DNA of 64,000 bases from Owenia fusiformis. Taxonomy: Eukaryota > Annelida > Polychaeta > Sabellida > Oweniidae. A model generated the notes under the pieces. That model ran no database searches, had not been told where the DNA came from, and worked only from the letters and a program-made list of their open reading frames with translations. Below, piece after piece: positions 3,001 to 58,571 of this stretch; within the stretch, counting starts at the first letter, position 1; each line of letters begins with the position of its first letter. Location of the stretch: assembly GCA_903813345.2 (NCBI GenBank), contig CAIIXF020000001.1:47447885-47511884 (forward strand). Direction: 5' to 3'. The translations under genes and the position numbers were made by a program.

Positions 3001-6000
3001 AGAAATTGCAATGACTCAAGCCAGCAGGCTGTCTATGATAGCAAACAGTTCATACTGACTACCTCAATCTGACTTTACTATCATATTCACCAACAATATG
3101 TCTTAGATCAATTTATCAAAATGAGCAATTTATGTGCTGGCCTCTGATTAATATGAAACTCTAATCGATCTTTCTGACGGAAATATTGAACTAATGTCCC
3201 AGAACTATATATGACTTCGAGAACCTGTGTTAATATACACTGGTGTTCCACTCGATTACGCTGGTTGCCGAAACGGTTCGTTTCGGTAACAAAATGTCGG
3301 AACGTCGAAGGTAAGATTTTTCTTTTTTCCTTATTTTTTTTTCACAAACGTATATCAGTATCTTATGTTTAAAAAATGTACATATTTACGAACATATAGT
3401 TCAGAAGACAACATAATCGCCGATTTAATTCCATACTTAAGTTACGGAAACGGTATTTCGAAAAACAGTTAAGATCTTTTTAACGTTTAACCTATTAACG
3501 TTTCTGTAACCAGCGTAATCGAGTGGATCACCAGTGATATAAGAAGAAATGCCAGAGTAAGACGCATAAAGATTCCTACGTTGCATTTGTACATGGCTTT
3601 CATTTCTAGGTCAAACCTAAGGGGAAATGCAAATATATTAATATACGTAGATTGTAGGGGGGTCAGTATTATTTATTATTACCACCTTGCCGGGCCAGTT
3701 CTAGGGGTTTTAGTGCTAGTTTAGAAGGCTTTCATTTTACTATATCGACCTGAGCAATATGTGACGTCATAGTGGCAATTTTCCCCGGGAAATTAGATAT
3801 CGTTCAGTGCGTAAGATTTTCTTGCTGTTTCAGCCCTGGTCATTAACGGTGGTAATAAAACTAATAACGTCATTTCTGCGGGCCTTCGGCCCTCGGTCCA
3901 ATATTTCACTATATTGCCCGCAGAAATGACGTTATTGTACTATTCTCGCTCTTTTGGCCTCGTCTTATTACCTGTTCCTTTGAGCCTTCCTCTATGATGA
4001 TTTTTACGTTCAACGACGCCTTTGTTTCCAGAAATGCTTTTCTCTGATTGATATCGTTGAAGAAATATGAAATGATTCCAAGTATGTTGGCACAGAGGAA
4101 TAAGAATATGTTTGCACCGACCTGAAAGTGAAAAGCACATATGTGGTAATCTATTTTATTGTCCGAGGTCTCCCTCATGATGCACCATGCCCGGGCACCA
4201 GGTCATATGCCGGTCAAGTCAGGATGGATATATATGTCCTCATTTCCCCGATCTGAAGCCCGAGATGCTGTTTGTTAAAATAACCTGATTAAAAACCTAA
4301 TAATGGTTAACAATAACATTATTTAAGATATTACTGAAGATGTTAGAATGTAATCTTTAAATGATAACAACCACACTTTTGTCAATTATATGATCCCATC
4401 AGATGATCTCTGACAAGGAAATTGATATCTTATTGGATCAAAGCATCTTGCGTTGCAAAGCAAAAATATGTGATTAATATCAGAAGGAGAGTTTCGCATA
4501 TTACATCATTCTCACTGATTATAAACTAGCGGCCCTTATTCACTTGTTAACTATAAGTATTATTCACTTGATCAACATCACGCGGTCCTAACTTCGACCG
4601 TTAATTTGAATTTTTGACCTACTAGATGTTTGAAAATCAAGGATTACGAGTCTCATACTGCACCGTTTTTCTTCAAACTTGTTCCATTCAAAGCATAACA
4701 CAAATCCCTTTCTGATGGTGCATTATTCTCTTCAACAGAGTCCCTACTTCCAGCGGCATTTTGGTCCCCAGCTGTAAGAAGGCCTTCTAACAGCTGGGGA
4801 CCAAAACGCTGCTAGAAGGAGGGACTCTTTACAGTAAAGTAATGCACCGACAGAAGGGCAATTTTGTTCTGCTTTTAATGGTATAAGTTTGAAAAAAAGG
4901 TGCAGTATGAAACTCGCAATCCTTGATTTTCAAGCACCTGGTAGGTCAAAAATTCAAATTAACGGTCGAAGTTAGGACCGCGTGAACATGGTATTTTGTA
5001 CTTTACCCTACATATTATTATAGTATTATTATATTACTTTTATTATAATTGTTGTAATAAATTATATATAAATGCAATTTTGAAGAGAGATCGTGATGAG
5101 TTATTAGCGTAGTATAGGCCTACACATTTATTCAAATAATGAGAGTTATTATTCGATCTAGCCAAACATTTTCATCTTTGATATAGCCTAGTTACTGTTG
5201 TATAATTATGCAATTGGACTATTTTTTATTTTAGTTCAATGATGTTTTGTCTTCTTGTAATAACATTTTCAAAGTGTCATTAGAGTCTTTGTAATTGCTC
5301 TCTGAAGAGGTTATATATTTTTCATATCATAATGTCTATCACTTTTTGTCATATCTACACCCATTCCATAACTTTGCCAACCAGAAATCTAATATTATTA
5401 TGGATAACGTTTTAAAAGGAACTAACTACAAACTTGTTGATAGGAGTGTATGCCATTTTTACAAGCAGAAGTATTTGATCGTATATCATCTTTTCATATC
5501 AAAGTGCTTTTGGCAAACTGACACTTTAACACAGTTGAAGATCAAATCCGATAAAGCGAGAATTTTTCGACAATTACGTTTGAGTTTTTGGGTCAACGCC
5601 TCCCTTTGTCAATTATCAGTGACAAGATTTTGTCCGGTTGAGTTACTAAAAACAAAACAAAAATCGAAATAATTTTCAGTAGAAAATTAAAATAAATATT
5701 TTCAAATGTTGAAAATATTTGTATTAGAAATAATCTGGCTGATCAACAGCAAGACAAATCTGATCAGCTGGAGCAGTCTGACTTTTGATGAAAAGAAGAA
5801 CGCGTTATCCAGTTCATGATAACACGCATAGTTGCCTAGTAACGTAACGTACATTGGAATCTATTTTTGATGTATGACATCAAAAAACCTGGGTTAAACC
5901 TGTCAAACGAGAAAAAATTCATATTTATGTTAGCCTCGGGGTCCAGGAACCTAAACTTTAACTGTCTTTGCTTAAGCCTAAAAGAATAGGATTATTTAAG

Positions 6001-10812: not shown

Positions 10813-11380
10813 CTCTATATATTTACTCTATGTCATGGTCATAACCAGTAGATAGACGAGGGAACTTTATACTCAATAAGAATAACCGAACATCATTTAT
10901 TCCACAGTTTTTGATCTGAATAATATATGGTATTTCAGTAAAACTTAAGTGAGGCAATTGCTCCGTCTACCTGGCTACCTCACACCTGGCTACGACCTGG
11001 ATGTAGTCAATAAACAAGTGAAAGTCTGAATTGGGGCATGTGTATTAGCCATTTTATCATCGTGATAGATCATATATTACTCTTGATACTCTATCAACAG
11101 TATATATAGTAGTGTTTGAGTGCAATAATACTCGTTAGTTATTGCCTCCAATAAAACAATACCAGATACTCGATCAGCTAGACAGCTTAACAGACACGCA
11201 GGTGTGTCAAATAAATCAGGGGTATCCATATGTCATCGAATGCAAAAATCAGAAAAATAGCATGATTTGCATGAAGTTACTACCAGACCTTATGTGATGA
11301 GGTCTAAGTTACATGAATTATTTGACTCAACATGAACATCTTTCATGAGTTGAAACTCACACGTGATTAGATATTCCCTA

Positions 11381-11460
11381 CCCTGCGCGCAGAGTCTAGT
11401 TATAAACTACATTAACGACGAAGCTCTCTTTTCAGAAGTGAAGTCAAACGAATGCAAGGG
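11381..11460. mobile_element. 80-bp solo terminal repeat of the CCCTGCGCGC element, TA-flanked
   Basis: Matches the 75-bp terminal inverted repeat of the 48786-49910 element (CCCTGCGCGCAGAGTCTAGT ... GTCAAACGAATGCAA), ends AAGGG, and has TA on both sides. It is either a minimal deletion derivative or a solo end. Confidence 0.7.
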
Positions 11461-18587: not shown

Positions 18588-19358
18588 TTCTATTGTTGTT
18601 GCAGTCCTAAATGCATATATAAAGCAGATGACTGTCTATTGCTGTACTGCAGTCCTAAATGCATATATAAAGCAGATGACTGTCTATTGCTGTACTGCAG
18701 TCCTAAATGTATATATAATGCAGATGATTGTCTATTGTTGTACTGCTGTCCTAAATGTATATATAAGGCAGATGACTGTCTATTGTTGTACTGCAGTTCT
18801 AAATGTATATATAAGGCAGATGACTCTCTATTGCTGTACTGCAGTCCTAAATGTATATATAATGCAGATGATTGTCTATTGTTGTACTGCTGTCCTAAAT
18901 GTATATATAAGGCAGATGACTGTCTATTGTTGTACTGCAGTCCTAAATGTATATATAAGGCAGATGACTCTCTATTGTTGTACTGCAGCCCTAAATGTAT
19001 ATATAAGGCAGATGACTGGTTATTGTTCTACTGCTGTCCTAAATGTATCTAATGCAGATGACTGTCTATTGTTGTACTGCTGTCCTAAATGTATCAAAGG
19101 CAGATGGCTGTCTATTGCTATACTGCAGGCCTAAATGTATATAGAAAGCAGATGACTGTCTATTGTTGTACTGCAGTCCTAAATGCATCTAATGCAGATG
19201 ACTGTTTATTGTTGTACTGCTGTCCTAAATGTATCTAATGCAGATGACTGTCTATTGTTGTACTGCAGCCCTAAATGTATATATAAAGCAGATGACTGTC
19301 TATTGTTGTACTGCAGTTCTAAATGTATCTAATACAGATGACTGTCTATTGTTGTACT
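18588..19358 (+). repeat. 48-bp minisatellite, about 16 units
   Basis: The unit is GCAGTCCTAAATGTATATAT plus AARGCAGATGACTGTCTATTG and TTGTACT. Because 48 is divisible by three, two frames stay open for 166-188 codons, with 16-residue repeats such as SPKCIYKADDCLLLYC. Some units near 19040-19230 and at 19320 are 44 bp (TATC for TATATATA), which breaks those frames. Nothing indicates translation. Confidence 0.9.
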
Positions 19359-20806: not shown

Positions 20807-23800
20807 ATGGGTTCTGGTGCAAAGGCAACCGCGTCACGAAAATTCATGCTTGTATTTAATAATGCTTTTCTGGTAAGTGTTGCTTATTAATACAACAGTA
20901 TCCACCAACACACGGCATCTTTCCCATTTTTTCTCATTTGGTTGAAGAAAATAAGTTACGGCTATAGTTTAAGCCCTGGACTCAGTTCAGATCTGACTGA
21001 TTCATTCCTTCGAGTGTGAAGTTTAGGAAATAACGCCTAAGTGGAATGAATCAGAATGCATTAAGGTCTTTGCATCAAACATAGAACTTAAGTTCTTTTC
21101 ACACATTGCAAAATATTTTCTACAAAATCACCTATGAGAAAGTGAAAGTTTTCGCAAGGATCAAGTTTGCAAAGCATTAATTTCAATATCAAGTTTCAAC
21201 GAATGACCTTATGTGAATTATTGGTTATAAAATGCAGTGCAGATATATGAAATACTTTGGATTGACTGGAATCGGACACATCTTTCTTAGCTATGTGTGA
21301 TATATCGATAGCACAGTCAACCTATTTTAAAGCAAGAAGAGGGGTTGCTTTAGATGCATTCCACCACCAAATGAAAACCTACAACGAAATATTAAAACCA
21401 ACGTTTGGTACATTTGGACATATATTGTTCGGAGTTCGATATACCTTATATGTCAAATTATCGTATATGCGGTTAGATCTACAATTATTTAGTGTAGTGT
21501 CATTTCAAAAAATGAGCAAACGGTAATTGCATCAGTATTGTCATTTGAACGTTATTATATATGCAGATATCCAAGGTGTCATCTCTAATCTTAGCAATCG
21601 TAAAGCAACGGGTGTAGACCAAATACCAAATGAATTCATTAAATATTCTAAAGATACTTTAATCAAACCATTATTAGATCTCTTTACCCTTATTAAAATG
21701 TATGAAACCATTCCAGATGAATGGAAATATGGCTTATTGAAACCCTTGCACAAATGTGGCGATTTAGAAACGCTTGATAATTATAGAGGGATAACGATCA
21801 CATCTAATGTTTACAAAGTCTTCTCAAGCCTTATAGAATCGAAAATGATGTCATACCTTCAGGAAAATAACCTCCTTGGCAATCTACAAGGCGCTTTCCA
21901 AAAAGGACATCGCTTAGAAAATCATATTTTTACTCTGAAAGGAATATGTGGTATCCGTAAATCACAGCGTTTAAAGACTTATTTAGCTTTTATCGACATC
22001 TCAAAAGCCTTTGATGTCTTGGATAGAGATATGCTTTTTATAAAATTATGGGAAAAGGGCATACACGGTAAACTTTGGAGAACTCTCAGACACCTATACT
22101 CTAATGTTCAAAACAAAGTTATTTTTGGCAATTTTTGCACTGACTGGTTTGAATCTGATGTTGGTGTCAAGCAAGGATGCATTCTCTCTCCAACTCTCTT
22201 TTTAATTGTGATGTCAGACCTTGAAAACAGCTTGATGAAAACTAATCTCGGTGTTAATCTTGATAATGAGCGTATTCCATGCTTGCTATTTGCTGATGAC
22301 ATTGTTCTCTTAGGAAAAGATGAAAACGATTTGAAAATGCTTCTCCAAACTGTAAATACTTTTGGTATTAAATGGGGCTTTAAATTCAGTAGGAAAAAAT
22401 CAAAAATTATGGTGATAGGAAAGCACATTGACCGTGAAAAGATCTGGAAATTGGGCGATCTTAACCTAACCGAGGTGACTGATTATAAATATCTTGGTTA
22501 TATGTTTCATAAAAACCTAAGAGACTCACATCATATTAATAATTTTGTGAAGGAAAAGGCACGTAAAATGTATAATTATACCTCAGCAACCCTTACAAAA
22601 CATTGCAATGTCAATCGAATTGAATTTGGAAACACTATATACAAGTCAATGCTCGAACCAGCGATACTTCACAGCTGCTCAATATGGTCTACCCTAACGA
22701 AAGAATCAAATAAAACCCTTAAGTCTATCCAATATAGAGCAGCTCAAGCAGTACTTCAATTAAAATGCAAACCTGCCCACTCCGCTTTGATTGGAGATCT
22801 TGGTTGGAGCCCTATATGTGGAATTTATGAAAAACGCCTTATTGATTATTTTATATATCTAAAGTACAAAGCTTGTAAGACTTCCCTCTCACATAAAATA
22901 TTTTGCTCGCTCATGAAGCGCTTTGAACAAGATAATGAAGCTTCGTGGAAGTATGTATCTAATGTTAAAGAATTACTGTGTAAACGAGGTCTCGATGATG
23001 TAATTTATAGAAGAGATTGTGATTGGTATGACAACTATTTGTCTATTTGCAAGGATGAATATGTTAATGAGTTTCACTCTAGTATTAAGGAATATAGCTC
23101 CTTAAAATTTTATTCAAAAATCAAGAAACACACTAATTTAGAGAACTACCTGAAACAAAACAATGACTTCTATGGATCAAAGCTCAAATTCTTAGCAAAA
23201 TGTAACAAATTTGCTCTTTATTCCAATTATGAATCACAAAGAAAGACAGATGGAAAATGCATATTATGTAAAGATAATGTAGATGACTCTATCCAGCACA
23301 GACTTGTAGAATGTTATTTCTTTAACAAAGAAAGAACACACTTCTATTGTAAGTTACTAGACAAATGCAATGAGAATGTGTTTAATTATTTTATATCCTG
23401 TACCTCAGAAAATAAACTCTATTTTATGTTAGGTGGTGATGTTCTCAGTCAATGGGGGCACGATCAATTTTATATTGTAGATGGACTGGTAAAACAGTTT
23501 TTAACAAAGATCTTTAAACCTGACTTATAAGAACGATTTTAGATATTTTAATGATCGTGTATGTATTTTGACTGTAGACGCACCTAAATACTTTTAGTGT
23601 GCCACTGATTTAAAAGTGTACGTCTAAATAATAAATAAATAAATAAATAATATAGATTAACACTTCCCATGTTCTCTTTTTTGATAACGTAAACAACAGT
23701 TACAAGTTGCAAGTTGCAATCTAATAGACTAGATGCGAGTAGAAATAATCTTGATTTACGTCATTAAATATTAAAAATCCAGTCAAAGTCAAAGTGATGT

Positions 23801-26800
23801 CATACGAGGGGCATTTGAAAAGTTAGTTTCTTTTTGCACTGATTTTTTTTATTTTTACAGATTTATTTATGAAACTTTCAGCATATGTTACATATACATA
23901 TATCTTGAGTATACATCAATATAAATATAATTCCTTATAAGGAAATGAACTTTTGGTTGCCATGGCAACAGCAAGACTTGGTTTCGTTGAGCTTTGTATA
24001 GACGTGTCGCAAAAAGGTCGCGCACACATTGTTACACATTTTCGCTTTTTAACACCACAGATTGTGACGTTTTATGAGAAAAATGTACACATATGGAAAT
24101 CCTTTCGTCCTCCACATTTGCCTCTATATCTCAAAATATTTAAGGGGAATAACTCTGATATCGTATATGTATTAACAATGGGATAGGAGCATCATAAAAC
24201 ACGAATCAATTGATATTTTAGGTGAAATAAATATACGTGTTGCTGTGCTTGAAAATAGTGTCAACAGGGGATATTTGCCAGATGTTTTGGTAACTCTTTT
24301 TTAAAAAAGAACGCGCAAGAATCGTGAACGGAGTGTAGTTGATCTAAAAACTTCATCGAAACAGCTTTAAAATGATATATAACTTTAATTAGAATATTAT
24401 CTTATAATCCGGGGAATCAAAGTTACATTCACGCGATACCCCTAAAAAACAAATGCGCCACCTTTTTGCGACACGTCATAACTATAATATTGAGAGGTCT
24501 AAAAACATGTTTTATATGCTATTTTGTTCCAACAAGGTTCGGAAAGACATTTATTTCATTCTCAAGAAAGAAAGGAGCAAAGCCAATTGCACTAAAAACA
24601 AAAATATGTTAACAAAAACAGTTATATAAAATATTTCTAAATAATTTTCGCATTAAATTGTTGTCAATCAGTCAACATTACATAAAATACCGTGTTTTTT
24701 ACAGAATGTTTTCAGTGATTGGTTTAAGAGAAAAACATTGTTGAATTCAGTTCTCCATATCGATACCACTCCTTTTGTCTTGTTCTCATCATTCCAGGTA
24801 TTTTTAGAGCAAAAAAGAAACGAACTTTTCAAATGCCCCTCGTATTTGAATTCTATAATTGAAAGTACATCTAGAAATATGGTTTCGAAAATTGTTTATC
24901 AACTTTAAATTATTTTTTTTGAAAATGTGATTTCTATTTCGGGGAGATTCCCCATAGACCTCATGTTTTAAAATCACAAAAGGTAAAATATCTTTTCTTT
25001 TAGTGGACAGATAACCTTTTTGCTTGACAAATTCTAATTTGCATTACTATTAGATACATACGGGTAATGAACCACGAAACAGTTGCATATTAAATTAAAA
25101 AGGAACTTTTTACTATACCCGCCATGCTATCTGACCCGAACGAACTGGTAACTACCTACTAGCATCCGAGTTATTATGACTCATTAATAAACGTGTAACG
25201 AAACTAAGAAGTGTAAAACGAATGAATTTCAAATGATAAAAGAATACACAGCCAATCTCAAACAACACTGTACAACGTTGTTTCAGAAACGGCACTGTAC
25301 AGTGTTGTTTAAACGGTGTTGTACAACGCTGTTTTAGAAACGGTATTGTACAGCGTTCAACACTGTTTAAAACAGCGTTGTACAACACCGTTTTAAACAA
25401 CACTGAACAATACCGTTTAAACAATAGTACAATCGTTCAATGCCGTTTCCAAGTTTTAATATGAAAAGTATACGGTTGTTCGTGAGCATTCTGATACTCA
25501 TAGCATCGTTCTGTTTCATCTGAACATCTCAGGGCGCCGGCTGAGAAGAAATGGGATGTCATGGTTTATCATGATAGTTCATGATTATAGGTCTACACTG
25601 TCCCTCCTACGAGGTGACCCAAAATTAGGTACTGTTATAGACCCAGGCATAAAACTGTCAGTGCTATACAATGTAAGCTTACATTAATGATATATCACTG
25701 GATATGCAATATTTTCCTTATTCCAGGTATTAGGGGGAGGATGTGTTGGATTGGCTATATGGGTACTTGTCGACAAGAAATACTTGAACGCATTGACGAA
25801 AATTGGAGGTTTAGATGATTACAATGTGATGTCACTCTTAGAGAAATGCGCTTATTCCTTAATAGTTGGTGGAGCTGTAATTTTTGCAATCGCCTTCCTT
25901 GGCTGCTGTGGGGTCATGAATGACAACAAGTTGGCTGTTTTCTTGGTAATTCGAAACTGTTATTTATCACGATATATAGATCAGTAGAGATATGATCATG
26001 ACTGGAATAACATTGTCATTTTTGGATCGGATTCCGCTTACTAGCTAGTAAGCCATTCATATCGATATACAAATATTTACACCAAGTTTGCTCACAGTTT
26101 TTAATTTTTTATCATCAACTCCTCATTGATTATTAAAATAGGCTACCCTGTAGTTTCATATATTCATATCCACGGCCATACAGTACATAGCATTAGAGTG
26201 AACAAGGACGGGTTGATATAAGACTTAGTGTGATTCGTGTTGCAATATATGACGATTTTTCTGGTCAATGTTATTAAAATACGAAATCGCGAAGCAGTGT
26301 ATTACAATCGGCAGAATAAAATCGAAAGTAAACTATTTCAACGTAAATCATACACTGTTCAAAATCGAAGTCTTTGATACGATTTAAATTTGATAACCAA
26401 ACCAGAAAGAAACTACCATATTTTCTGTACAGTATGTTATACCAGTATATATAAGTAGCCATTCCGGTACATACCACATTCACTGTTCCACAACTAGTTA
26501 CTTTGACGGAACGTCAATGTAACAAAATGGATGAACTTCCTCTTTACGAGTTTTCTGTTTTCTCGATTTAACCCTACTTGTAAGTCAAGCTGCAGATTAT
26601 AATTTGGCACAAAGCTAGAAAATATAGTCTAGTTTCAATAAGTTTCTTCAAATTGGAATTTGTTTTGTAAATGAAGTTGCAATTCATATATTCAGCCCCT
26701 CGCTTTTTTTACATTGACGAAAGTGCGTTTTATTACCAATGTATGTAACTTTGACAACTTACGTCAATGTAACAAAAGCGATGGTCTAAATGCATGAATT

Positions 26801-29800
26801 GCTGCTTTATTCAAAAATCAAATTCCAAACCGAGTGCATATTCTAAAAGCGAGACTATGTCGTCTAACTACGTAAGTTTAAATCGAGAAAACAAAAAACT
26901 CGTATCCAGGAAGTTCATCCATTTTGTTACATTGACGTTCCGTCAAAGTAACTAGTTGTGGAACAGTGACATTATTATTTAATCAGTTTTTCTCGTTAAT
27001 GTGACAACACGCGTACGGGCAACACGTACCCTTAATATTGTGAGTTATATGTGTTGTAGTATGCTGTCGTGTTATCGCTGACAGTTATATGCGAGGCGAC
27101 AGGCGGGGTTATAGCCGTTATATTCAAGGAACAGGTAAGTAAACAACCATATTCTGTGCCGTGCTATATCTCTGGATGTACAAAAACGTGCAACATGACA
27201 GCCATCACAACATGATCAGTATAACCAATTAGGTAAAAGGATGTTCAATCGATTTGCTGTTATGAATATGATACTGGGATTACCGCTAATTAGTTTTGTT
27301 TCATTTAAAATTGACCGTACGGATGCGTCATAGATCAGATATCTCGAACTATTTATAAAGAATCTACAAATATCAGGGCGTCAAATCATGAGATTATTTC
27401 CTGGATCGGAAGTCGGATATTACACTGATCCTGACACTAAGATCCCCCAAAATCATTCTAAATATGGTAAATATGAGGTAATATTTTTCAGCTGGAGGTA
27501 GAACTAAAATCGTTTCTTAACGACACAATTTATGAGAAATACGACGGAGATCTGTTTACTGCAGAACCATATTCTCTCGCCTGGGACTTCGCCCACGTTA
27601 CAGTAGGTGCAATAAGAGATGTCCCTGGTATATTACTCTTTGTATAATTTCTAAACAAATGAGAGGGGTGTATATACGTTATATGTTGCACTGTACAAGG
27701 TGCAAGAAACATTAACTGTTCACCCCTACAAAAAATTCAACTGATAATAGTACAATAACGTCATTTCAAAGGGCAATATAGTGAAATATTGGACCAAGGG
27801 CCGCAGGCCCAAGGTCCAATATTTCACTATTTTGCCCGCAGAAATGACGTTATTACTATTATTACCACCGTTAATGCCCAGGGCTGAAATAGCAAATTTG
27901 AAATAGAAAATCTTACGCACTGAACGATATCACTTTTCCAGGGAAACATAGCCGGGCGGATAATGTCATTATTGCCCGACTAAAGTCATTAACGCCCGAC
28001 ACAATATTGCTCACGTCAATATAGCAATTTAAATGCCTTCTCAACTAGTACTAAAACTCCTAGAACAGGCCCTGCAAGGTGGTAATAATATAATATAGTA
28101 AACATGTGTCGAATTCAATTCTTCAGTTACGAGCTGTGTTATACCACGGTGTATAACCCAAACGCTCCTACATGCACGACGGAGCGTTACATTTACGCGG
28201 AAACGCTCCGGAGCGAAATAAAATGGCGGCTAATGAAGATTCTACTATGACCGTAAGTATTGTTTCTCTCGTTTCTCTTACATATCATATGTCATGGTGA
28301 AATATTATGTACCATTCGATGAACAATACCGTGAGCAAAGATCTTATTTATTCAACTTCTGGTGGTAAACTGTTATTTGCTTGATCACAGCTCCGTAGTG
28401 TAGATCGAACGAATCTGAAGATGACGATTTGACCACAAATTACGAATTAAACTAGTATTTCTATGAAAACGTTAATCTTTCTGTTTAAGTAGTAGATCAC
28501 AAACTCGTATATTCTCATTTCCTAAAATCCCAGTCCAAATCCATTACTTGTTCTCGAGAAATCGCTTGTTTTCCTCGAAACGCTCCGTCGATTTAGACCA
28601 CAATTTTAGAAACGCTCTTACCATTTTGTTTTGATATCATTTTCAGATTATTAGAGAAGAGTTCCGAATCGAATCTATCTCTCAAAAACGTGTTGTACTT
28701 GTTAGGCAAATTGAAACATCTGAACCTGGTGGTGCTAAACGTGCAACTAGCTGATTAAAGCCTATACATTAGATGATGTCATGCCTACATATGTGCTAAA
28801 TCATAAAACTATAGAAAAAACGAAAAGTTATATGTGAATTAATCTTTCTTCTATTGATGCCAAGGGATATAATAGATCTTTTCTTTCTCTTCCTGAAAAG
28901 GAAAGGCAAGCTATATATTTCCTTAACTGATCTAGACTACCGGAGCGTTTCCAATTCACTGTGTTAACCAGATCGGAGCGTTTCTTGAATATGAGAATGT
29001 CATCATTTTTAAGACTGGATTTTCGGTCATCAAATCACTATTACGATAATGTATGGTGCGTTGAAGCATTGGAATTTGACTAAAATATACGTTGGTGCTC
29101 TAATCTTGGCTCAACTCATCACATGTATCGACAAAAGGGGTTTTGACCGGTATAATGACAAATACGTTTTGAATTTTGATAACTATACTGCTTCGTACAG
29201 CTCTTCCTAATTGCTTCAAACGTCAACAGCCAGCCACGTACAACATGAATATCACACCCATCGAATGGTATACTCGAAATATGTAACTCATACCTCTTAT
29301 TCCCATTATTGGGGAAATTGTCAGACGGCTCATCATTCCCGCCAGACAGTTTTCTTACTCCGGAGCGTTTCTTTGCTTAATTTCAGTAATGAAACGCTCC
29401 ATCGTGCATGTAGGAGCGTTTGGGTTATACACCGTGTATACGAGCGTAGCTTTGTATGACTTAATATCACAAATAAAAGGTTTAATAGGTTATCGTATAC
29501 ATATGATATTTCTATTATATATTGTGGCATTCAGACTTATATACTGTTCTTATGTTTTAGTTTGATTGCTGTGGAATCTACAACTACACAGATTTTTATA
29601 TTGCGCAACACTGGAACAGAACATATACTTACCAAGATGGAAACAGTACTGTTGCCATGGTGGCAGACATTCCTACAATGTGCTGTAAAATAAAGGACAA
29701 AGCACTTTACCCTCTAAATGTTCTTAATCTTGAGCTTCAAAACACGACCTGCCCTCTATACCCGACAGCTGCAAACTCCTGGTTTTTAACGGTAAGTTAA

Positions 29801-37479: not shown

Positions 37480-40079
37480 TCATCTTGACCATGGTCTCCA
37501 AACATCCTCTTCAAGTTGTTCCTGATCCACAGCGTCAACTTGTGGATTTGGGGATGGTTCGAGCACCGGGGGTTGATGCTGTTGTGCTATAAGCGACGGA
37601 GAAGTGTACTGGTTAGAGGATGCACAAACAAATGAGCTAGTACCCTCGAAAGGATTTGTATGTAAAGGGACAAGAGATGAGCCACCATGAACTTGCCCCG
37701 CTATCAAAAATGATTGTTTTGCTTCTGATGTGTTATGTCCGGTATTAGGGTGTGTTGCATTGTGTTGCGCTGGGGGTATTATGCCAACAGCAGGAATAAT
37801 GTACTGAGGAATAGATACCCCACTCCCAATAACTTGACTCGGCACTAGTATCGCAATCTGTCCAGCACTTGCAGAAGGAAGTGTTGTCGGGATAGCAAAT
37901 GTAGTAGTAGCATTTACAGTTTGTGAAAATGTGCAGGTTGTTTCCAAATCAGTACTTGTTTTTGTATTAGACGTGTCCATGTCCATCCTTGGATGTACCG
38001 GCTCTTGGTTAGATGATCTCATAGTTAGGTCTAATGCGCTAGAATACCCTCCACTAGTAGATGGGGCTGGGTTGTCGGAGCGCTCACCTGGTGAAAATTC
38101 GATATTTGAGCTACTGATAAAGGATTCTGGTTTAGGTAATAGTAAAGGAGACTGGGTAGCAAGGACTGACTGAACAGATCTTGAACGCATTATAGGGACT
38201 ACATGGGGTTTGTTGGCCTGAGTGTTAACGTTAGCGGCGAGGTGGGACAACAGCCGCCCCCTCATATGTACATCTATCCCATCAATCGTGGTTAGATATC
38301 GAGCCACCTCGTCAGCACACTCATTATAGCCATCGTGATATTTGGCGACTGAATCCGGGTCTCGAACGGTCGCTGCAAAATAAAAGTAGAAGTAGCGTTT
38401 AGAAATTCAGTGTATTATGCCTCACATAAAAGATTGCTCATTATCATTGGCTGGTGATTTATAATAGAAATTACCTTACCAAAGAACTTAACATAAAATG
38501 ATACGAAGTGTCTTTTTAAAGAATTTTCCCATGAGTTTTTATTTTTAGTGTTTTGTTTATAAGTGATACATGATCTATTTGGGGAGCTAGATTATAGTAA
38601 CATCACTTGGTTCATACACGCGGAACGTCAATATTTGCTAGGATGTCCCAGGTTAATATTAATAATGATAAATGACACGTTTTATTTATCATGTCATCTA
38701 GGTTATAAACTGAGGTGTTGAAATGTATACACTCTCTAGAATTAAATTCTCCGAAACTTAAATCACTTTAATTTTATAAATTTCAGTTGCAATTTTGATT
38801 AACAAGGCATATTTAATATATACAATTATTTAGCATATTGAAATAGTCATTGACATCGTTGAATCTATAAATCACATGAAATGAAATAACAAAAGGACGT
38901 GACACGTTAACAAAAATATATGTGGGGATTTATTGACTAAAAAAGTCAAGAATACAAAGCTGAAGATGATAAAGTGTATTAAGCCTGACCCTCGCCTTGG
39001 CCTCAGTATTAGATGTATACCTGAAAGGTTGGTCCTCTGGAGTTGGCGCAGATACCTAACCGTCATCTCCAAAATATCGGCTTTCTCCATCTTTGAATGT
39101 CTTGAGCCCTGTTAAAAAGAACATCATATCTTATGATTAATCGGGATCAATGAATACCTTTCAATGTAAGAATATTCGTGTATGCAACTTATGATTAGAT
39201 TCCTAGTTCACCTATGTCACACTGATCAAATTTTTCTAAAGATCTATCCTTTATCACGACTAAGCTAGGAGCGTGGGAATATGCAAACCAAAGTTTACCA
39301 ACATGTTTTTTATTACATTGTGCTAACTGATGTTTTGTCCCAAAAGGCAATTTCAGTTGAATTTAATTTTGTTTGCGCAGTACTATTCAATTCAATATTC
39401 GATCACGAGCAATAGTTTCAAAAGAAGAAATAGACCAAACGATTGTGAAACAATACAAATGGGGACATTTTTTCTTTGGTTGCAATTGCGCAAAAAATGT
39501 TTGGCGATACTTACTTTTGTTTTACGTTTAATCGTGCTGAACAAATCACACACTATAATTTACGTATTTACATTAGAAGAAAAGTTTGGAATTAAAATTC
39601 AACCAATGGCAATATTAGTTATTAAACGTATCAATACCCTACAAAGCGAATACATGTGATTTTTTCTAAAAGGCACGAGGTGAAATCAACAGCCGATTCA
39701 TAAGAAATATAACTGGTATTGAGATTGGATTAATCCGACCAATTCATTATTAATCTTTGATATTTCCGTTTCATTAGGCATGAGATCAAATGAACTGTTC
39801 TTCATTTACCTCTTGTTTCATGAAGTCGACCAGGAGTCCTTTCAGCTCAGATAAGCACGTATTGATCCTCGCCCTTCGCCGCTTTTCCATCACGGGTTTA
39901 TTACTCTAAACAATAATCTTACGTAATATATTCATTCTCACTGCATCATAAATCTAATAATGGCGTTTGGAATTAGATATAATATGATTTATTTATGTAT
40001 TACTTAAAAATGTCCAAACCTTTTTTGATGCATTTGCCTCTGCAGTGGACGACGATGACGTAACACTCTCAGACGCCAT
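37480..40079 (-). CDS. HES: HES (Hairy/Enhancer of split) bHLH-Orange repressor A, 4 exons, 378 aa
   Basis: DNA-binding transcriptional repressor. Exons on the minus strand: 40079-40020, 39905-39810, 39108-39021, 38372-37480 (60, 96, 88 and 893 nt), with an unbroken frame and TGA at 37482-37480. The basic region SNKPVMEKRRRARIN has the proline that marks the Hairy/E(spl) class. Helix 2 contains SKMEKADILEMTVRYLRQLQ. An Orange domain follows at about residues 92-130 (KYHDGYNECADEVARYL...). The protein ends WRPWSR, i.e. the Groucho/TLE-recruiting WRPW plus two residues, as in HES1/HES4 where WRPW is also followed by two residues. ALDLTMR (residues 194-200, bases 38037-38017) resembles a CtBP-binding PxDLS/T motif with Ala for Pro. 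Exons 2 and 3 have exactly the lengths of HES-B at 52-53 kb, so the two are paralogues. Su(H) sites upstream suggest Notch control. A candidate poly(A) signal (TTTATT on plus) is at 37159-37164. Confidence 0.95.
38017..38037 (-). other. CtBP-motif-like peptide in HES-A
   Basis: Encodes ALDLTMR in the linker between Orange and WRPW. The CtBP consensus is PxDLS/T; Ala replaces Pro, so binding is uncertain. Confidence 0.35.
39272..39279 (-). promoter_or_regulatory. Su(H)/RBPJ site in HES-A intron 2
   Basis: CGTGGGAA on plus (TTCCCACG on the HES-A sense strand), a perfect YGTGRGAA match. Confidence 0.5.
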
Positions 40080-44947: not shown

Positions 44948-47623
44948 TCGCTTTATGATGCTCGCCACAATAGTAAGTTAACTATCAATAATGTATATAT
45001 AAATATCGAAGCACAAAAGGGAAAGGACCAGAAACTATAAAGAAACCAAGCAAGAAAAACAAACTCTAAGTGTAAACCTTAAGAAAGATAGACACCATAT
45101 ATCCCAAAACCATGGTCTAACGTGAAAAGAAATAATGTCTAACATCCCCTTCTCCCCTCTAATCGAGAACCAATATCACATTCCAGGACCAGAACACCAA
45201 GGTACATTTCATTCATACTGAAGTCATTACAATACATGTTAAAGAAAACATTGAAAAAAAGATACTCATAAATCATAACATCAAAAATAGTTGTAGATAC
45301 TACTCATCAAAGATGCATTCAATCTCAAATGATGTGGGATAGACGAATTGATAGAAGTCTGGGATCTCCCATGATCGATCGTAAAATGTACGTGTCATAT
45401 GGCATTGACCAAATAAATCAGAGCACGAAAATATGTTATACGTTCACTAGCCAGGCACCAAGGTACAAATATTTCGTCTTGATTTCAAGTTTCTTGTTAT
45501 GCGAGGTATAATCCAACAATTTAATAAGAGATTTGGAGTTGGTCGAATTGGCTTGACATTCTAAAATGAAAGGTTCAATGCAAAACATGTGTTATATGCA
45601 ATTCATGCAGGATGTCGAAGGTAACTCTAAAATATAAGTTTGTCGCATCGTTCTGAATGAAACAGGCGTATCCTATTGATTAGCACGCACTAAAACACTT
45701 ATCTTGATGTATTATCGGTAAAAGATGGTCAATACGAGATCAGACGAGGCAACGAAATATTGGAGCAATTTTTCAGTCAGTCAAATACAGTCTTATGTTA
45801 TCCAGAGGTATTTCCGACCATAAGTACAGTATTTTTCAATTTATTAGCATAGAATGTAGATATTATCAAATTCAGTTGTCTAGAATGAAATGAATGAAAA
45901 CATTGGAAAGCATAAGAAATTCTTATGGTAAAATAACATTGGATATGTTGTTTTCGAACTTTATTTCTTTCAGCACATTCCCCATTTTTGAATTCCAGAA
46001 TAGTTTCATCACTGACTCTTCTATCATTAACAGATTTATCCGTTCGTTCCGTTATACGATAACGCGACAAACGTCATTCGACACGATGCATACTGCATAG
46101 GATAATTAACGACATACGAGCAAAAAGGAATGAAATGCTCCCTAATTATACATTATTTCAAGGCTATTGAAATGTTGATCCGACCCCTTGGGTTTATTTG
46201 CGGGTGGGATTCAAATGGCAAATTTTGAAATAAAACATGCGTTTTAGTAACCATCCCATGAACTTATCTTATAGTTCGTTTTAATCGCTTTCTTTTGATA
46301 CTGCGACATGTTGTTGAAATGTCTCTGATTATGATTTGCTTTATTTGACGTTTGGCTACACTCAAAGTTGAAACAGGTAAACGTGTAAATGTCAGTTGTT
46401 GATGATATTAAAGCAAACTGTCGACAATTTAAAAATGTTTTTTTACTAAGTTTTATCCACCATAACACATCTTGTCAAAGATCGAGCGAAGTCGTCTCAC
46501 ATGGTTTATGTCAAGACAGACGGACGGATGAACGAAATAACGGACCAAAATACGTAATCGAGGATTTGGATTGATTTGAAAGAACTCATCATGAACTACC
46601 ATATTGCACGTCTTTTGAATAAATAGTCGAATAATTTCACCAGGTTATTTTTCAGTAGCAGTAACTTCACATCATAGCGACCGATACATCACTATGCACA
46701 CAATCTTATTCAGAAAACAATTGCAACATACAATACTTACGTACAATGTACAATAAAACACTTTTTGTTGAAATAAATCTATTCAAATAAAATACTATCA
46801 GCTGAAGTTTTACTTTAAAATATTCCAAACTGTCAGAATCAATGACAAGACAGATATATCAATGTCCGAAATCACTGTTGTATGTCGTATTCTCATAAAT
46901 CGTTCAATTTTATTCAGGTCTTTAATTCTCATCTTAGAGGAACCCGTAGGGCTTTAATTCTTTGTATTGGCAAAGTAAGTCAATACCATATGATTCTGGC
47001 CAGTATTCTCATCATCCAAACCAATAATTATATACCGATGAAAGAAATTTGAAATTATAATAGATATATCTTTATAAAATACTGAATCTTCGGCACTTTA
47101 ATGTCGCGTGGCTCCCAGTAGGTCTGACTATATCATTGAGTTCAATTGGTGGTATATTCCCATATTGAGCCTACCTTATTGTCCCATATTGAGTAATCGC
47201 CAATGGGTCGTCCATCTGTCATATGGGGTTTGATCTATTGGTGTTGACTACACGGACCATGTATCATCAAATAAACGTATGTAATCATTCGTCATAGCTG
47301 GAGAGGTACTCAGCTCACTGGCACCTGCAAAATATAATTGTTCCGTTTTTGGTCATAATATTGACATTTGTTTGATTTTCTTTTGTATTTCAAGAGTTCT
47401 GAGAATGTGAATCGTGCAATTTGGAATTATATTTTACGTTAATATGACCGTCATTCATCGAGCATACCATAATGATCAACTTTATGGAAGATCATGGAGT
47501 ATGCACTTTAAAACCTTTTAGAACAACTATTTGTTGCATGCTTTTATGTCAGGGGACATAGCTCAAAAACAAGTTAAAGTGCATGGAACCCATTGTGGGA
47601 TCCTCAGTCTGTACTATCGCTTG
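44948..47623. other. HES intergenic, unassigned
   Basis: No gene, RNA or element recognised; all open frames are short and without motif. Confidence 0.5.
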
Positions 47624-48534
47624 GACGTGTCGCAAAAAGGTGGCGCATTTGTTTTTAAGGGTATCGCGTGAATGTAACTTTGATTCCCCGGATTATAAGA
47701 TAATATTTTAATTAAAGTTATATATCATTTTAAAGCTGTTTCGATGAAGATTTTAGATCAACTACACTCCGTTCACATTTTTTGCGTGTTCGTTTTTAAA
47801 AAAGATTTTTTTACCAAAACATCTGGCAAATATCCCATGTTGACACGTTACATTTTGAATTATTTTTCGTCTTTAAACGTTCATAACTCAAACAATATAT
47901 GACTATTATACTTATTTTTCGTCTTGATAAAGGTAGATGGAAGTTTTATTTCAAAGGATGAATTTTAGTAAGCGTCCCATTATATTGTGACGTCATAGAG
48001 TCTGAAAAATAGAATCTGTTGACAGCGACCTTTCTTGCTCATTTTTTGGTACCTTCAACTTTTCAGGTGTACATTAAACAAAAAATACGAGATCAATTTT
48101 TAATAATCATACATGATTATTTTGCTCCTAAACTCTAGTTTATTAATAAATAGTTGATTTTGTTCACAAAAGTATGTGTTTTCTGTTGTATGTGGAAAAG
48201 TGGAGGACGAAAGGTTTTCAAAATTCATTAAAATAGGGCTAATTTACGCCATTCGCCTATTTTCAAGCACAGCAACACGTATATTTATTTCACCTAAAAT
48301 ATCAATTGATTCGTGTTTTATGATGCTCCTAGCCCATTAACAATATATATATGATATCAGAGTTATTCGTCTAAAAGGTTTTGAGATATAGAGGTAAATG
48401 TGGAGGACGAAAGGATTTTCATGTGTGTACATTTTTCTCAAAAACGTCACATTCTATCATGTTAAAAGCGAGGATCCTCTGGATTACGCCACAAAATGTG
48501 TAACAATGCGTGCGCGAGCTTTTTGCGACACGTC
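47624..48534 (+). mobile_element. 911-bp longer copy of the GACGTGTCGC inverted-repeat element
   Basis: Termini GACGTGTCGCAAAAAGGTGG at left and ...CTTTTTGCGACACGTC at right. Most of its length matches the 24001-24477 copy in reverse complement. No clean target duplication is visible here (TTG left, TGG right). There is no transposase frame. It lies between the two HES genes. Confidence 0.8.
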
Positions 48535-48785
48535 TGGAATAGAGACATAACCTTTAGATGAGAGACTAATAAATCAGAATACAAGAAACCGATATAAGAT
48601 ATAATACAAAAGTGATTTACAGTAGTCCCTAACTTGCTCAGAGAAAAATGAAGTTTCGTTGACCGGTACTCTGCCACAAAAAATGAACACATCATTTCAA
48701 AGTACTGACTTCCCTTTTATTAAGAAATTATAGTTCGTTTTGATTGTAACAGGGGCTTTTGCCTCTAAAATCCTTCTAAAAACTA

Positions 48786-49910
48786 CCCTGCGCGCAGAGT
48801 CTAGTTAAACTACACGAAGACGAAGCTCTCTTTTAAGAAGTGAAGTCAAACGAATGCAAATGGTATCTAAAAACCTTCTCAAAACAACTTTTAGTATATA
48901 TATTTTTTACATTTTGCCACAACATAACTGCATTTCAATTATGATATCAATTGATTTTCATAAAATTAAGTACTTTGTCAATATGTTTTAAGTAACAAAA
49001 ACCGTATAATGCTTGAAAAGGTATTGTGACATGTATAAAAGGTACAGGGTAACAAAAACGTTAGCCAAATAAATATGATTACTTTGGAATATAATCATGA
49101 TATCCCCATATTAAGTCAATAGTGCATATCCCCATGGTAAGTCAATATAGCCTTGCTCAAATCCTCATTTTCTAAGTGAAACTCCCTGTTACCGGGAAAA
49201 TGTAACATAACCTAGTGTATATCATATTTGTAGGAACACTAGTGTACTAGGTAGTAGTTGGTTTTTGTGGAGGACACCCGAACAACAGGTTCCTTATCTA
49301 GAGCTCTAGAAAAACCAGATCAGGGACTAATTGTGTTTTCGGGACAACAGTCCACTTCATAAATTTGACCATAGTTGCGCATAAAATATTTTCGCCATAG
49401 GGCGTTGACATACTCATGAAGCAAGAACACTCGCAATAAATGCATGCGATTAGAATACTAAACTATACTTCTTGTAATTAAATTGTATATGCTCATGTAA
49501 TCTCCACCACGCACGTGCAAAAAGGATCAGAGACGAGATGGCTCACTATCTAAGATTACTTCTAATCTACTACTTACAGATTTTAAAATGTGTACATTTT
49601 TCTAAATAGTGAAATATATACATCTATGTATATTACGTATAATACTTTGATCATGTTTCATGAGTACATATAAACGTTAATTTACTCCATACGTTCATTT
49701 CCGTCTTGTGGTGTTAAGTGTAAGATATTGTTCATTCATGTGCACTATATATATTGCTTATTAACGACTTAGCGGGGATACAACAATCAACGAGATACCA
49801 GGAGTTTCAGCTCCAGGGGGCAACTTGGGATACTCTTTGCATTCGTTTGACTTCACTTCTTAAAAGAGAGCTTCGTCTTCTTGTAGTTTAACTAGACTCT
49901 GCACGCAGGG
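48786..49910. mobile_element. 1125-bp TA-flanked DNA element with 75-bp terminal inverted repeats
   Basis: Left repeat 48786-48860, right repeat 49836-49910, two mismatches in 75. Ends CCCTGCGCGCAGAGTCTAGT; TA at 48784-48785 and 49911-49912. There is no transposase frame, so it is non-autonomous; superfamily possibly Tc1/mariner from the TA. It lies between the HES genes. Confidence 0.85.
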
Positions 49911-50449
49911 TAAACTTGGGACTAAATGACGTTGGATAACGTAGGGGTTTTCATCTCCCATATTCCTGAATGTTTGTTCTACCATTAGAATATTACCATT
50001 AAATAAAGTGTGTGTCATTTCGATGTTCCACCTTCATATTTTTCTTTTAAATTTTTGTAATAAGTCCAACCAAATTGGGCCGAAACCAAATCCGAATATT
50101 GATGAAATCAACACAATTATGTGTATGTATAAAATACTTTTTTTCATACATTAATTATTAAAAACTACAATTCATATTAAGGTGCAACAGTTAGTGCAGG
50201 GGGGTGGCATTCAACGATCATCGACCAGTGTCAAAATATATTTGAGTTTGGATATTTCATCAAGACTAACATATATTTTCATTATATACAAAGAAAACCC
50301 CTTGATGAACATTAATTTAGCTGATATTCCTCTTGAAACGCGGTGGATCTTAAAAATCTATAAGTGAGACTCCCTTTATAGAAGCTTTGAACTGAATTTA
50401 CACTTCTTTATGCTGAAATTGATAGTTTATACAACACATACATTTTAAG

Positions 50450-54700: not shown

Positions 54701-55682
54701 CAATTATAATGGATTCAAAACAGGAAACGATGTTGCACCAGATAGGTATATGCCAAATAAATAACAGATTGATACATGTACATTTAAATTGTGCTGATTT
54801 ATTTCAGGGAGCACAGAGCCTACACAAATGGCCAAATTTCACGCTGGCTACAACGAATGTGCCAGCCAGTTGTCCAACGTTCTCTCCAACACAGGGAATG
54901 GGGTCGACCTCGAACTAAGAACAAGACTTTTAACACATTTAGCGAACACTATCCATGTTCAGAACTCAAGCTCTCACGATGGTGACGTCCACTCGTCCAG
55001 TCCTCACCCTACCATGCCACATGTAATGGATCATATGAGCACTGTAATGACATCGCAGTCGTCACCTCCATTATCTGAACCACATATGAAGATGATCAAA
55101 CTTGATGATGTTTCAAGTTCGCAATATCTCAGTCAAAGCCTGGAGGCATCCAATCCACAAAAGGAAACAGATTCTTTATTAAAGCATAAATATCCTTCCA
55201 GGCGAGAACAACATAATGAACCAAATGCGAGGTTCAATGAACAAACCGTTCAGAATAGCACCCTGGGTTACGTCCCAACGTTGGGTCCGTTACCAGCGCC
55301 ACGTTTATCCACACCTACACACCCATTAGCCATACAGACAATGCCACAAGGAGTGCAAATTATGACCCCAGCTCAGAATGGAAACTTGGCAATTGTAATT
55401 CCAAGCAATTTTCTAAATGGTACTAATTGTCTCAGCATACCCTTATATGCAACATTTGCTAATAGCGGCCCTATTCAACACAGTAGCCCGAAACGGGCTG
55501 ATACCATCGAGTTTGCTCCAATGGACACTCAAGCATCTATCAGTGTACGAGAAAATAAACTTGACGGTGGGATCACTGTTAAAAATAACACTGATACATC
55601 TGATCATAATCAGCGATTCCCTGCTCCTGCTGATGTTGCGGGTAAAGCGTCTTATGACAGCGACATGTGGAGACCTTGGTAG
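51732..55682 (+). CDS. HES: HES (Hairy/Enhancer of split) bHLH-Orange repressor B, 4 exons, 367 aa
   Basis: Second Hairy/E(spl) repressor, transcribed away from HES-A. Exons: 51732-51776, 52098-52193, 53311-53398, 54808-55682 (45, 96, 88, 875 nt); GT/AG borders throughout. The basic region SNKPMMEKRRRARIN holds the class-specific proline. Helix 2 is SKMEKADILEMTVRHLRQLQ, differing from HES-A mainly at one His/Tyr. The Orange domain at about 85-123 (KFHAGYNECASQL...) is more diverged. The C-terminus is a strict terminal WRPW followed by TAG, unlike the WRPWSR of HES-A. The long linker is Ser/Pro/Gln-rich, with an IKLDD that fits a SUMO-site pattern. The start ATG at 51732 gives a 15-residue leader (MTPEEAMETLASDKR) and sits 183 bases below a perfect Su(H) site. 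A poly(A) signal AATAAA lies at 56388-56393. Confidence 0.95.
52921..52928 (+). promoter_or_regulatory. Su(H)/RBPJ site in HES-B intron 2
   Basis: TTCCCACA, same strand sense as the promoter sites; the equivalent intron of HES-A also has one. Confidence 0.4.
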
Positions 55683-56934: not shown

Positions 56935-58571
56935 TGCCTTGGTCACATAGGCTCCGATTTTCACTGCGGCGCCCGGCCGATGAGTATTTTGTTCAAAATC
57001 GGCCGGCGAGCCCGGGCATCGTACGGGCGCCGGGCGATGATCGCCACTCATCGGCCGATTTTTAGACATCGTACGGGCGCCGGCAGAGTTTTATCGCGGA
57101 GATAAAAGTTGCCGATGTTTTGGCGATTTTTTCTCATCCAAACTCATCGGTACCTACCCGGCCGTGTCCCGCCCGATCATCGTACGATTATCTTACGGCG
57201 CCCGGTGGCATCGCACGGTCATCTTTGGATTTTGCGTGCTGATTTGTTGGATAAATCTTAATAATGATTACTTATTAAGTGATATAAAGGTTTTAAAAAT
57301 AATGAGGTAAGGAATTATAAATACTACACACTGTCAGAGATTTTTATAAAACATAAATGGAACGATTAAGCTTACTGTATATAAAACAATGGCACACATT
57401 TGAATGGCTGGGTGGGTGGGTTGATCTAGTCGTTCTTATATTGACATTAATCGTGTATGTCTGTCATACACATTGAATAGAGTGTTACATTTTTATGCGT
57501 ATATTCACTCATGCATATACCATTACAAATCATTTATTTTAAAAACCTTCGGAATGTTTTTGTGAGTACAGTAATTTCAAGGGTCACAATTTTACTACGA
57601 TTAATTACGTCTCAATTACAACGTAATATGCCAAAGGCTAAGGATAGAGGGGATAAGGCCAATGGGCCATGAGGAAGGCCTTGGGAAGACAGGTGGAAAA
57701 AGACAATAACAATGCTACTGAGCTGGTGGATGATGAAGATTTAGATGTGTCTATAGGGAAGCGGGTACTCCACTTGAAACAGAAGAAATATGCCAATTTC
57801 TTTGAAGCCATATTTTTATGACCAAACTAATTCTCTTTACAAGAACAGACGAAAGAAAGATGGAGAAATAGGGAATTTTGCTAATAGCATCGGATGGACA
57901 GGTAGACATAGTATTTTTTTATATGAAAGATCTAAAAATGAATTAAGATCAGGGTGCACTTTGATGAAAAGACCACGTCCAGTATGGCAAGTGATTTTAG
58001 ACGGTCATATCTTTCACCATGAGTACCTTCTGGGCACAAATAGAGTGTTTTTATTAAAACAATATGTTTTCTTTCAATTGAAGTACCCATGATGATAAAA
58101 ATATCAATCAAACAATTCGAAAAATGATGAATAGGGACCCCATGTCAACATTTTTTCTAAATATTGAACCTATTTACTCAAAAGAGGATCTTCTTTTTCT
58201 GATTTTTATTGCATGAAAACATTATTATCCTGGAAGTCCTGTTTATCAAAGTATTTCGTTTTCAAATGTTGCATTCACGCCATGTGGAACAGTCATACTG
58301 GGTCATACAGGGATTAAGTATAAATCTAGAGGCCTGTAAATCGACCGATGTCCTGGCGGGTTCCGTACGGCCATCGGCCGATAGCCTTGCGATACCCTTG
58401 CGATGTCTTTCAGATTCAATTGATTGCGGGCGCCGCACGATGCCTGTTCTAATGTGACCATACTCACGATTAGATCAAGACATCGGTGAAAAGTCACCGG
58501 CGCCCGGTCGATTTATAAATCGGCCGATGACTACTCATCGGCCGGCGCCCGGCGGCTATGTGACCCAGGCA
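56935..58571. mobile_element. 1637-bp element with GC-rich ends and TAA duplication
   Basis: Ends TGCCTTGGTCACATAG (left) and the complement of TGCCTGGGTCACATAG (right); TAA on both sides (56932-56934, 58572-58574). Subterminal regions carry many copies of CATCGTACGGGCGCCGG and CATCGGCCGAT, far richer in GC than the rest of the window. The middle is AT-rich and has decayed frames (57669-57821, 57790-58092) that may derive from a transposase or accessory protein. The 3-bp TAA duplication would suit the PIF/Harbinger group; unproven. Confidence 0.7.

Follow-up and report, generated by a model that had tools for sequence, protein, structure and literature searches.

A 1292-bp stretch of DNA (positions 28145 to 29436) within the 64-kb window, by which we mean the whole stretch of sequence analyzed here, is a real non-autonomous DNA transposon, probably representing a new family of an already known kind. 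On balance, the element belongs to the broad RAG/Transib/CACTA (CMCT) group and most likely to its Transib-like branch with 5-bp duplications. In the literature, CAC ends together with 5-bp target site duplications mark Transib and RAG-like transposons, so a Transib-like assignment is the best available classification.

Ends and target site duplication

The initial annotation described 44-bp inverted repeats with one mismatch, and the outer bases of the left and right ends are indeed identical at 43 of 44 positions, within terminal inverted repeats that extend over 49 nt (Table 1). Both ends read CACGGTGTATAACCCAAACGCTCC and begin, as had been claimed, with CACGGTG. The TATAC flanks that were reported are likewise present and perfect on both sides, and among direct-repeat lengths of 1 to 11, only 5 is found at the exact edge; the interval given for the feature, 28140 to 29441, is the element plus the two copies of the duplication. 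The element is a single copy within the window.

Folded as single-stranded DNA, the left end is unusually stable (z of −2.67; 1 of 200 shuffles equally stable), which is expected because of its inverted sites and carries no functional reading. A 12-bp identity lies at a matching offset in the two halves of the element (165 bp in from one end and 166 bp in from the other), a length that 1 of 300 shuffles reaches. We do not claim an ancestral long inverted repeat: the inner alignment scores 1.7 standard deviations above the mean of 60 shuffles, and the shuffle maximum is higher. Joining the flanks (400 bp per side) of each of the four CAC elements described below revealed no uninterrupted relative in the window that would mark an empty site. 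The outer 20 bases have no exact match in viral_contigs or genome_contigs, and blastn of the element against phages gave none, but these collections are viral and prokaryotic and the absence says little. No description of the element appeared among the papers listed by our literature searches, which is weak evidence on publication.

Table 1. Features of the element and of three comparison elements (positions in the window; offsets from the nearer end of the element)
Feature	Position	Strand	Details
Comparison element E1	3238..3536	.	ends CACTGGTG, duplication ATATA
Comparison element E2	4579..4984	.	ends CACGCGGTCC, duplication AACAT, 85% self-complementary over its length
Comparison element E3	26481..26968	.	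ends CACTGTTCC, duplication ACATT, repeated site ACGTCAATGTAAC
Left target duplication copy	28140..28144	.	TATAC
Left terminal inverted repeat	28145..28193	+	CACGGTG start; 49 nt, 96% complementary; 43/44 outer bases
AAACGCTCC site 1 from left	28160..28168	+	offset 15
AAACGCTCC-like site 2 from left	28181..28189	-	offset 36, 1 mismatch
AAACGCTCC site 3 from left	28201..28209	+	offset 56
First-exon remnant (tentative, unproven)	28223..28252	+	AAAATGG start context, 10 codons, GTAAGT donor-like site
AAACGCTCC internal site 4 from left	28578..28586	+	offset 433
AAACGCTCT internal site 5 from left	28610..28618	+	offset 465, 1 mismatch to AAACGCTCC
Second-exon remnant (tentative, unproven)	28647..28754	+	after TTTTCAG (28640-28646); 35 codons and stop, matching frame
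AAACGCTCC internal site 5 from right	28942..28950	-	offset 486
AAACGCTCC internal site 4 from right	28975..28983	-	offset 453
AAACGCTCC site 3 from right	29362..29370	-	offset 66
Right terminal inverted repeat	29388..29436	-	CACGGTG start on - strand; 49 nt, 96% complementary; 43/44 outer bases
AAACGCTCC site 2 from right	29392..29400	+	offset 36, opposite orientation as on left
AAACGCTCC site 1 from right	29413..29421	-	offset 15
Right target duplication copy	29437..29441	.	TATAC

A mirrored array of repeated sites

The repeated motifs ascribed to the interior of the element resolve into ten AAACGCTCC sites, eight of them exact. Allowing at most one mismatch, AAACGCTCC has 17 matches in the window, a count that none of 100 shuffles reaches; the seven outside the element are all inexact, and every exact copy in the window (8 of 8) falls inside it. 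The sites are mirrored about the centre of the element, with the order and orientation + - + + + from either end and with the paired offsets listed in Table 1. The mirroring of the six sites that lie outside the near-perfect repeat was matched by 16 of 200,000 random placements, at a 21-nt tolerance that was set after inspection of the data. The sites had been called subterminal, and they do cluster near the ends, but 4 of the 10 lie 430 to 490 bp from the nearer end. These sites may bind the transposase or a factor that the transposase needs.

Element E3 has a repeated site of its own, ACGTCAATGTAAC, which with up to two mismatches has ten matches in the window, six of them in E3; the three exact copies in the window are all in E3. 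A YY1-type motif, AANATGGCG, occurs near the left end only, at a distance of 75 bp (28220-28228). We rejected it as a signal, its frequency in the window (3 against 1.57 expected) being near chance.

Coding content

The element was annotated as non-autonomous, and its cut-and-paste ends and duplication, with no protein domain recognized inside, uphold that reading. A Pfam search of its six frames gave no match at E up to 1, and its 53- and 59-amino-acid pieces likewise had no Pfam match; against PDB, the 59-amino-acid piece returned two unrelated chains at E values of 0.49 and 0.83. A spliced reading, MAANEDSTMT followed by 35 codons, combines a start context, donor-like and acceptor-like sites, and a consistent frame, and it has no match in Pfam or PDB, each at E up to 10. 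The window has eight cases of AAAATG followed by GTAAG within 35 bases, where 2.85 are expected; 0 of 100 shuffles reach eight. Two of these cases fall at left ends, one in E1 and one in the element; a third is on the other strand inside the element, and five are elsewhere. The excess is suggestive at most of a spliced 5′ gene remnant.

Other elements in the window

Three further elements, E1, E2, and E3, share CAC...GTG ends and 5-bp duplications with the element. In both E2 and E3 the duplication starts with A and finishes with T, which lengthens the inverted repeat outward by one base. When the four CAC ends are aligned, the common columns are CAC, then a G and a T; having little beyond CAC in common, the four are taken as separate families. 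The ends of E3 and E1 had no exact match in viral_contigs and that of E2 had none in genome_contigs, results of little weight in viral and prokaryotic collections.

Three screens of the window bear on this class. In the first, 6 of the 19 inverted-repeat pairs listed have a duplication of 4 bp or longer that sits at the edge or no more than 3 bases within it, in all six cases of 5 bp: the four CAC elements, a pair in a tandem array (25311-25393), and the pair at 48784-49912. Among the 26 rows of the second that carry a duplication of 4 bp or longer, the commonest class, with 4 rows, combines CAC with 5 bp. The third took in 502 inverted-repeat positions in the real window and found a 5-bp duplication at 6 of them, four of which begin with CAC; the others are 48785-49911 and 56974-58544 (GCGCC, a 16-nt end with mismatches), the latter perhaps a product of chance. 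By comparison, 5-bp duplications flanked 12 inverted-repeat pairs in 60 dinucleotide-shuffled windows taken together, and none of these pairs begins with CAC. Since the real window holds more inverted-repeat positions than the shuffles do (502, where a shuffle averages 90), about one chance 5-bp case is expected there.

The 1.1-kb element at 48784-49912 has 84-bp inverted repeats, TACCCTGCGCGCAGAG, and an ambiguous boundary: one reading gives ACCCTG ends flanked by AAACT, the other TACCCTG ends flanked by AAC, a duplication of 3 bp. It may have a 5-bp duplication but starts with ACCCTG, so the 5-bp elements of the window are maybe of several kinds. A lone stretch of ~80 bp at 11378-11457 is 91 to 93% like its ends.

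The surroundings hold repeats of other sorts. Two copies of the same ~350-bp repeat, ~71% identical and inverted, lie at 27749-28095, less than 50 bp left of the element, and at 3670-3944, ~130 bp right of E1. Fold-back pairs whose ends are GACGTGTCGCAAAAAG occupy 24000-24489 and 47612-48535, each place holding related copies, and our screen found no flanking duplication at the edges of these pairs. At 18589-19358 a 48-bp unit is repeated ~16 times in tandem, and the array is open in several reading frames. A 667-amino-acid open reading frame at 21527-23530 has a LINE-type reverse transcriptase domain (RVT_1; E value of 1.4e-31). The C-terminal frames at 37480-38406 (-) and 54798-55682 (+) have Hairy/Orange domains, with WRPW at the end or two residues before it, and are probably paralogous HES-type genes in opposite orientation; the window also encodes the N terminus of an adenylyl cyclase. 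Given these Hairy/Orange frames, the adenylyl cyclase N terminus, and the LINE-type reverse transcriptase, the window is animal DNA by gene content.

Evidence for and against a Transib-like assignment

According to the excerpts of the literature that we drew upon, the CMCT group (CACTA/EnSpm, Mirage, Chapaev, Transib, and others) mostly has 5′-CA..TG-3′ termini and duplications of 2 to 5 bp (PMC12730594). Duplications of 5 bp were found at 532 of 533 hopper and 7 of 7 transib2 insertion sites (PMC3276498), Hztransib has a 5-bp duplication, GCTCG (PMC1852546), and the duplications of protostome RAG-like (RAGL) elements are described as invariably 5 bp, with CAC starts and with CAC common to Transib terminal inverted repeats (PMC7204232). 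The element resembles these Transib elements (hopper, transib2, and Hztransib) in both its 5-bp duplication and its CAC ends. The terminal inverted repeat of Hztransib may also start with CACGGTG, a likeness that was not used for classification. CACGGTG is identical at 6 of 7 positions to the recombination signal sequence (RSS) heptamer CACAGTG. The passage available of a recombination assay places CACGGTG among the top RSS heptamers for AT, TT, GT, and CT spacers and also in low-activity tables for other spacers; TA, the dinucleotide directly after CACGGTG in the element, is outside the spacers of that passage (PMC9723617). Read by eye, the element has no RSS-like nonamer at 12 or 23 bp.

The Transib family proposed by the initial annotation is partly supported, by the CAC heptamer, the 5-bp duplication, and three more elements with the same combination, but the GC-rich target preference is absent from all four. 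TATAC had itself been flagged as a misfit, and the misfit is general: the duplications of the four CAC elements are AT rich, with 3 G/C in 20 bases (P of 0.0013 against an assumed 50% G/C and 0.046 against the 35% of the window), in a sample of four elements with one insertion per family. Published excerpts report a GC target bias for ProtoRAG, Transib, and RAG (PMC8289069) and the target motif CCANTGG for hopper and transib2 (PMC3276498); TATAC and the AT-rich duplications of E1 to E3 differ from both, and none of the four fits CCANTGG. A GC-biased target is a preference and no absolute rule. The Transib superfamily encodes a transposase, whereas none is recognized in the element. The excerpt of an ORF-based survey of molluscs reports a single Transib element (PMC10294476), which is relevant only for a mollusc host.

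A rival reading places the element in a different CMCT lineage, either Chapaev, EnSpm/CACTA, or one not yet described, in which CAC..GTG ends usually go with duplications of 2 to 4 bp; here the stagger would be 5 bp and the preferred targets AT rich. We regard this as unlikely, though still a serious contender. The AT-rich duplications of all four CAC elements, unlike those of Transib, speak for it, and so does the sharing of CA..TG ends among CMCT lineages (PMC12730594, in excerpt). Excerpts of the literature also describe EnSpm families with CAC..GTG ends and 3 bp and CMC miniature elements (MITEs) with CAC..GTG ends and 2 bp. It is the length that separates them: EnSpm/Chapaev (CMC) MITEs resemble the element in their ends but have, in those excerpts, duplications of 2 to 3 bp against its 5 bp. 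All four CAC elements have 5 bp, and Chapaev duplications are 4 bp, so Chapaev and EnSpm are disfavored by duplication length. The excerpts that we consulted name no non-Transib CMCT lineage with 5 bp, and they leave out the length for Lanisha.

Three other systems overlap with the element in duplication length and are disfavored by their termini. A RAGL derivative, with RAG1L and RAG2L acting together to move it as they do in oysters and nemerteans, would account for both the CAC ends and the 5-bp duplications, and the excerpted description of protostome RAGL (RAGL_B and RAGL_D) includes these features and non-autonomous copies, as in Pinctada imbricata (PMC7204232). We nevertheless find this derivation improbable because its terminal consensus misfits: counted by hand, 5 of the 17 positions of CACTWMCAAACKTYKBB, the protostome RAGL consensus, agree with CACGGTGTATAACCC, and three of these are CAC itself (PMC7204232, in excerpt), and the conserved AAA at positions 8 to 10 is TAT in the element. 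RAGL ends, moreover, are conserved across species over ~13 to 15 bp, whereas the two ends of the element agree over 44 bp that include repeated sites. A Pfam search of six frames at E up to 1 found no convergent RAG1L/RAG2L, a weak result that is expected for a non-autonomous copy. The ProtoRAG elements of lancelets, as excerpted, likewise have a CAC heptamer and 5-bp duplications, together with a second conserved block in their terminal inverted repeats; they differ from the element in that the heptamer is CACTATG and lies 27/31 bp from TR5, GCCATCTTG (PMC8289069). The YY1-type motif AANATGGCG noted above is a further likeness to ProtoRAG, at a near-chance frequency.

Repeated short subterminal sites are found in hAT elements too, which speaks for a hAT5 element, but hAT ends are usually C/T-A-G and the element and its three companions have CAC at both ends (4 of 4). 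The 5-bp duplications that define hAT5 (PMC12730594, in excerpt) fit, and on its termini we consider this origin a shade more improbable than a RAGL one. A solo terminal unit of the KolobokP type, a lineage known from molluscs, is of nearly negligible probability: its duplications of 3 to 4 or 4 to 5 bp overlap in length with that of the element, and its excerpted description gives Kolobok ends as RR..YY against CA..TG here (PMC9587614). The termini count against both hAT5 and Kolobok, and a Transib-like element of the CMCT group remains our preferred reading.

Proposed mechanism and implications

In the mechanism that we propose, a DDE transposase supplied by a relative elsewhere in the genome would recognize the terminal CACGGTG and the nearby AAACGCTCC sites and would cut just outside CAC at both ends. 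The freed ends would then be joined to the target with a 5-bp stagger, and repair would leave TATAC on each side. The identity of the enzyme, its cutting chemistry, and the role of AAACGCTCC as a protein-binding site are what we infer from the sequence.

Two features are left over by this classification, the mirrored array and the AT richness of the targets in all four CAC elements. Both would be accommodated by an undescribed lineage beside Transib, characterized by four CAC elements with a 5-bp stagger and AT-rich targets and, in this element, by a mirrored-site array (+ - + + + from either end) and no heptamer-nonamer pair; we hold this to be doubtful, and somewhat less probable than membership in another CMCT lineage. 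If true, it would show how the signals can be rearranged while the CAC cut itself stays the same.

For the Transib-like assignment that we prefer, an autonomous relative with a Transib/RAG-like transposase would mean that the host carries several families of the group ancestral to V(D)J recombination, and the mirrored, repeated-site ends described here would provide a test of variation in end recognition around a conserved CAC. Should the enzyme prove to be another, CAC ends and a 5-bp duplication alone would no longer be enough to call an element Transib.
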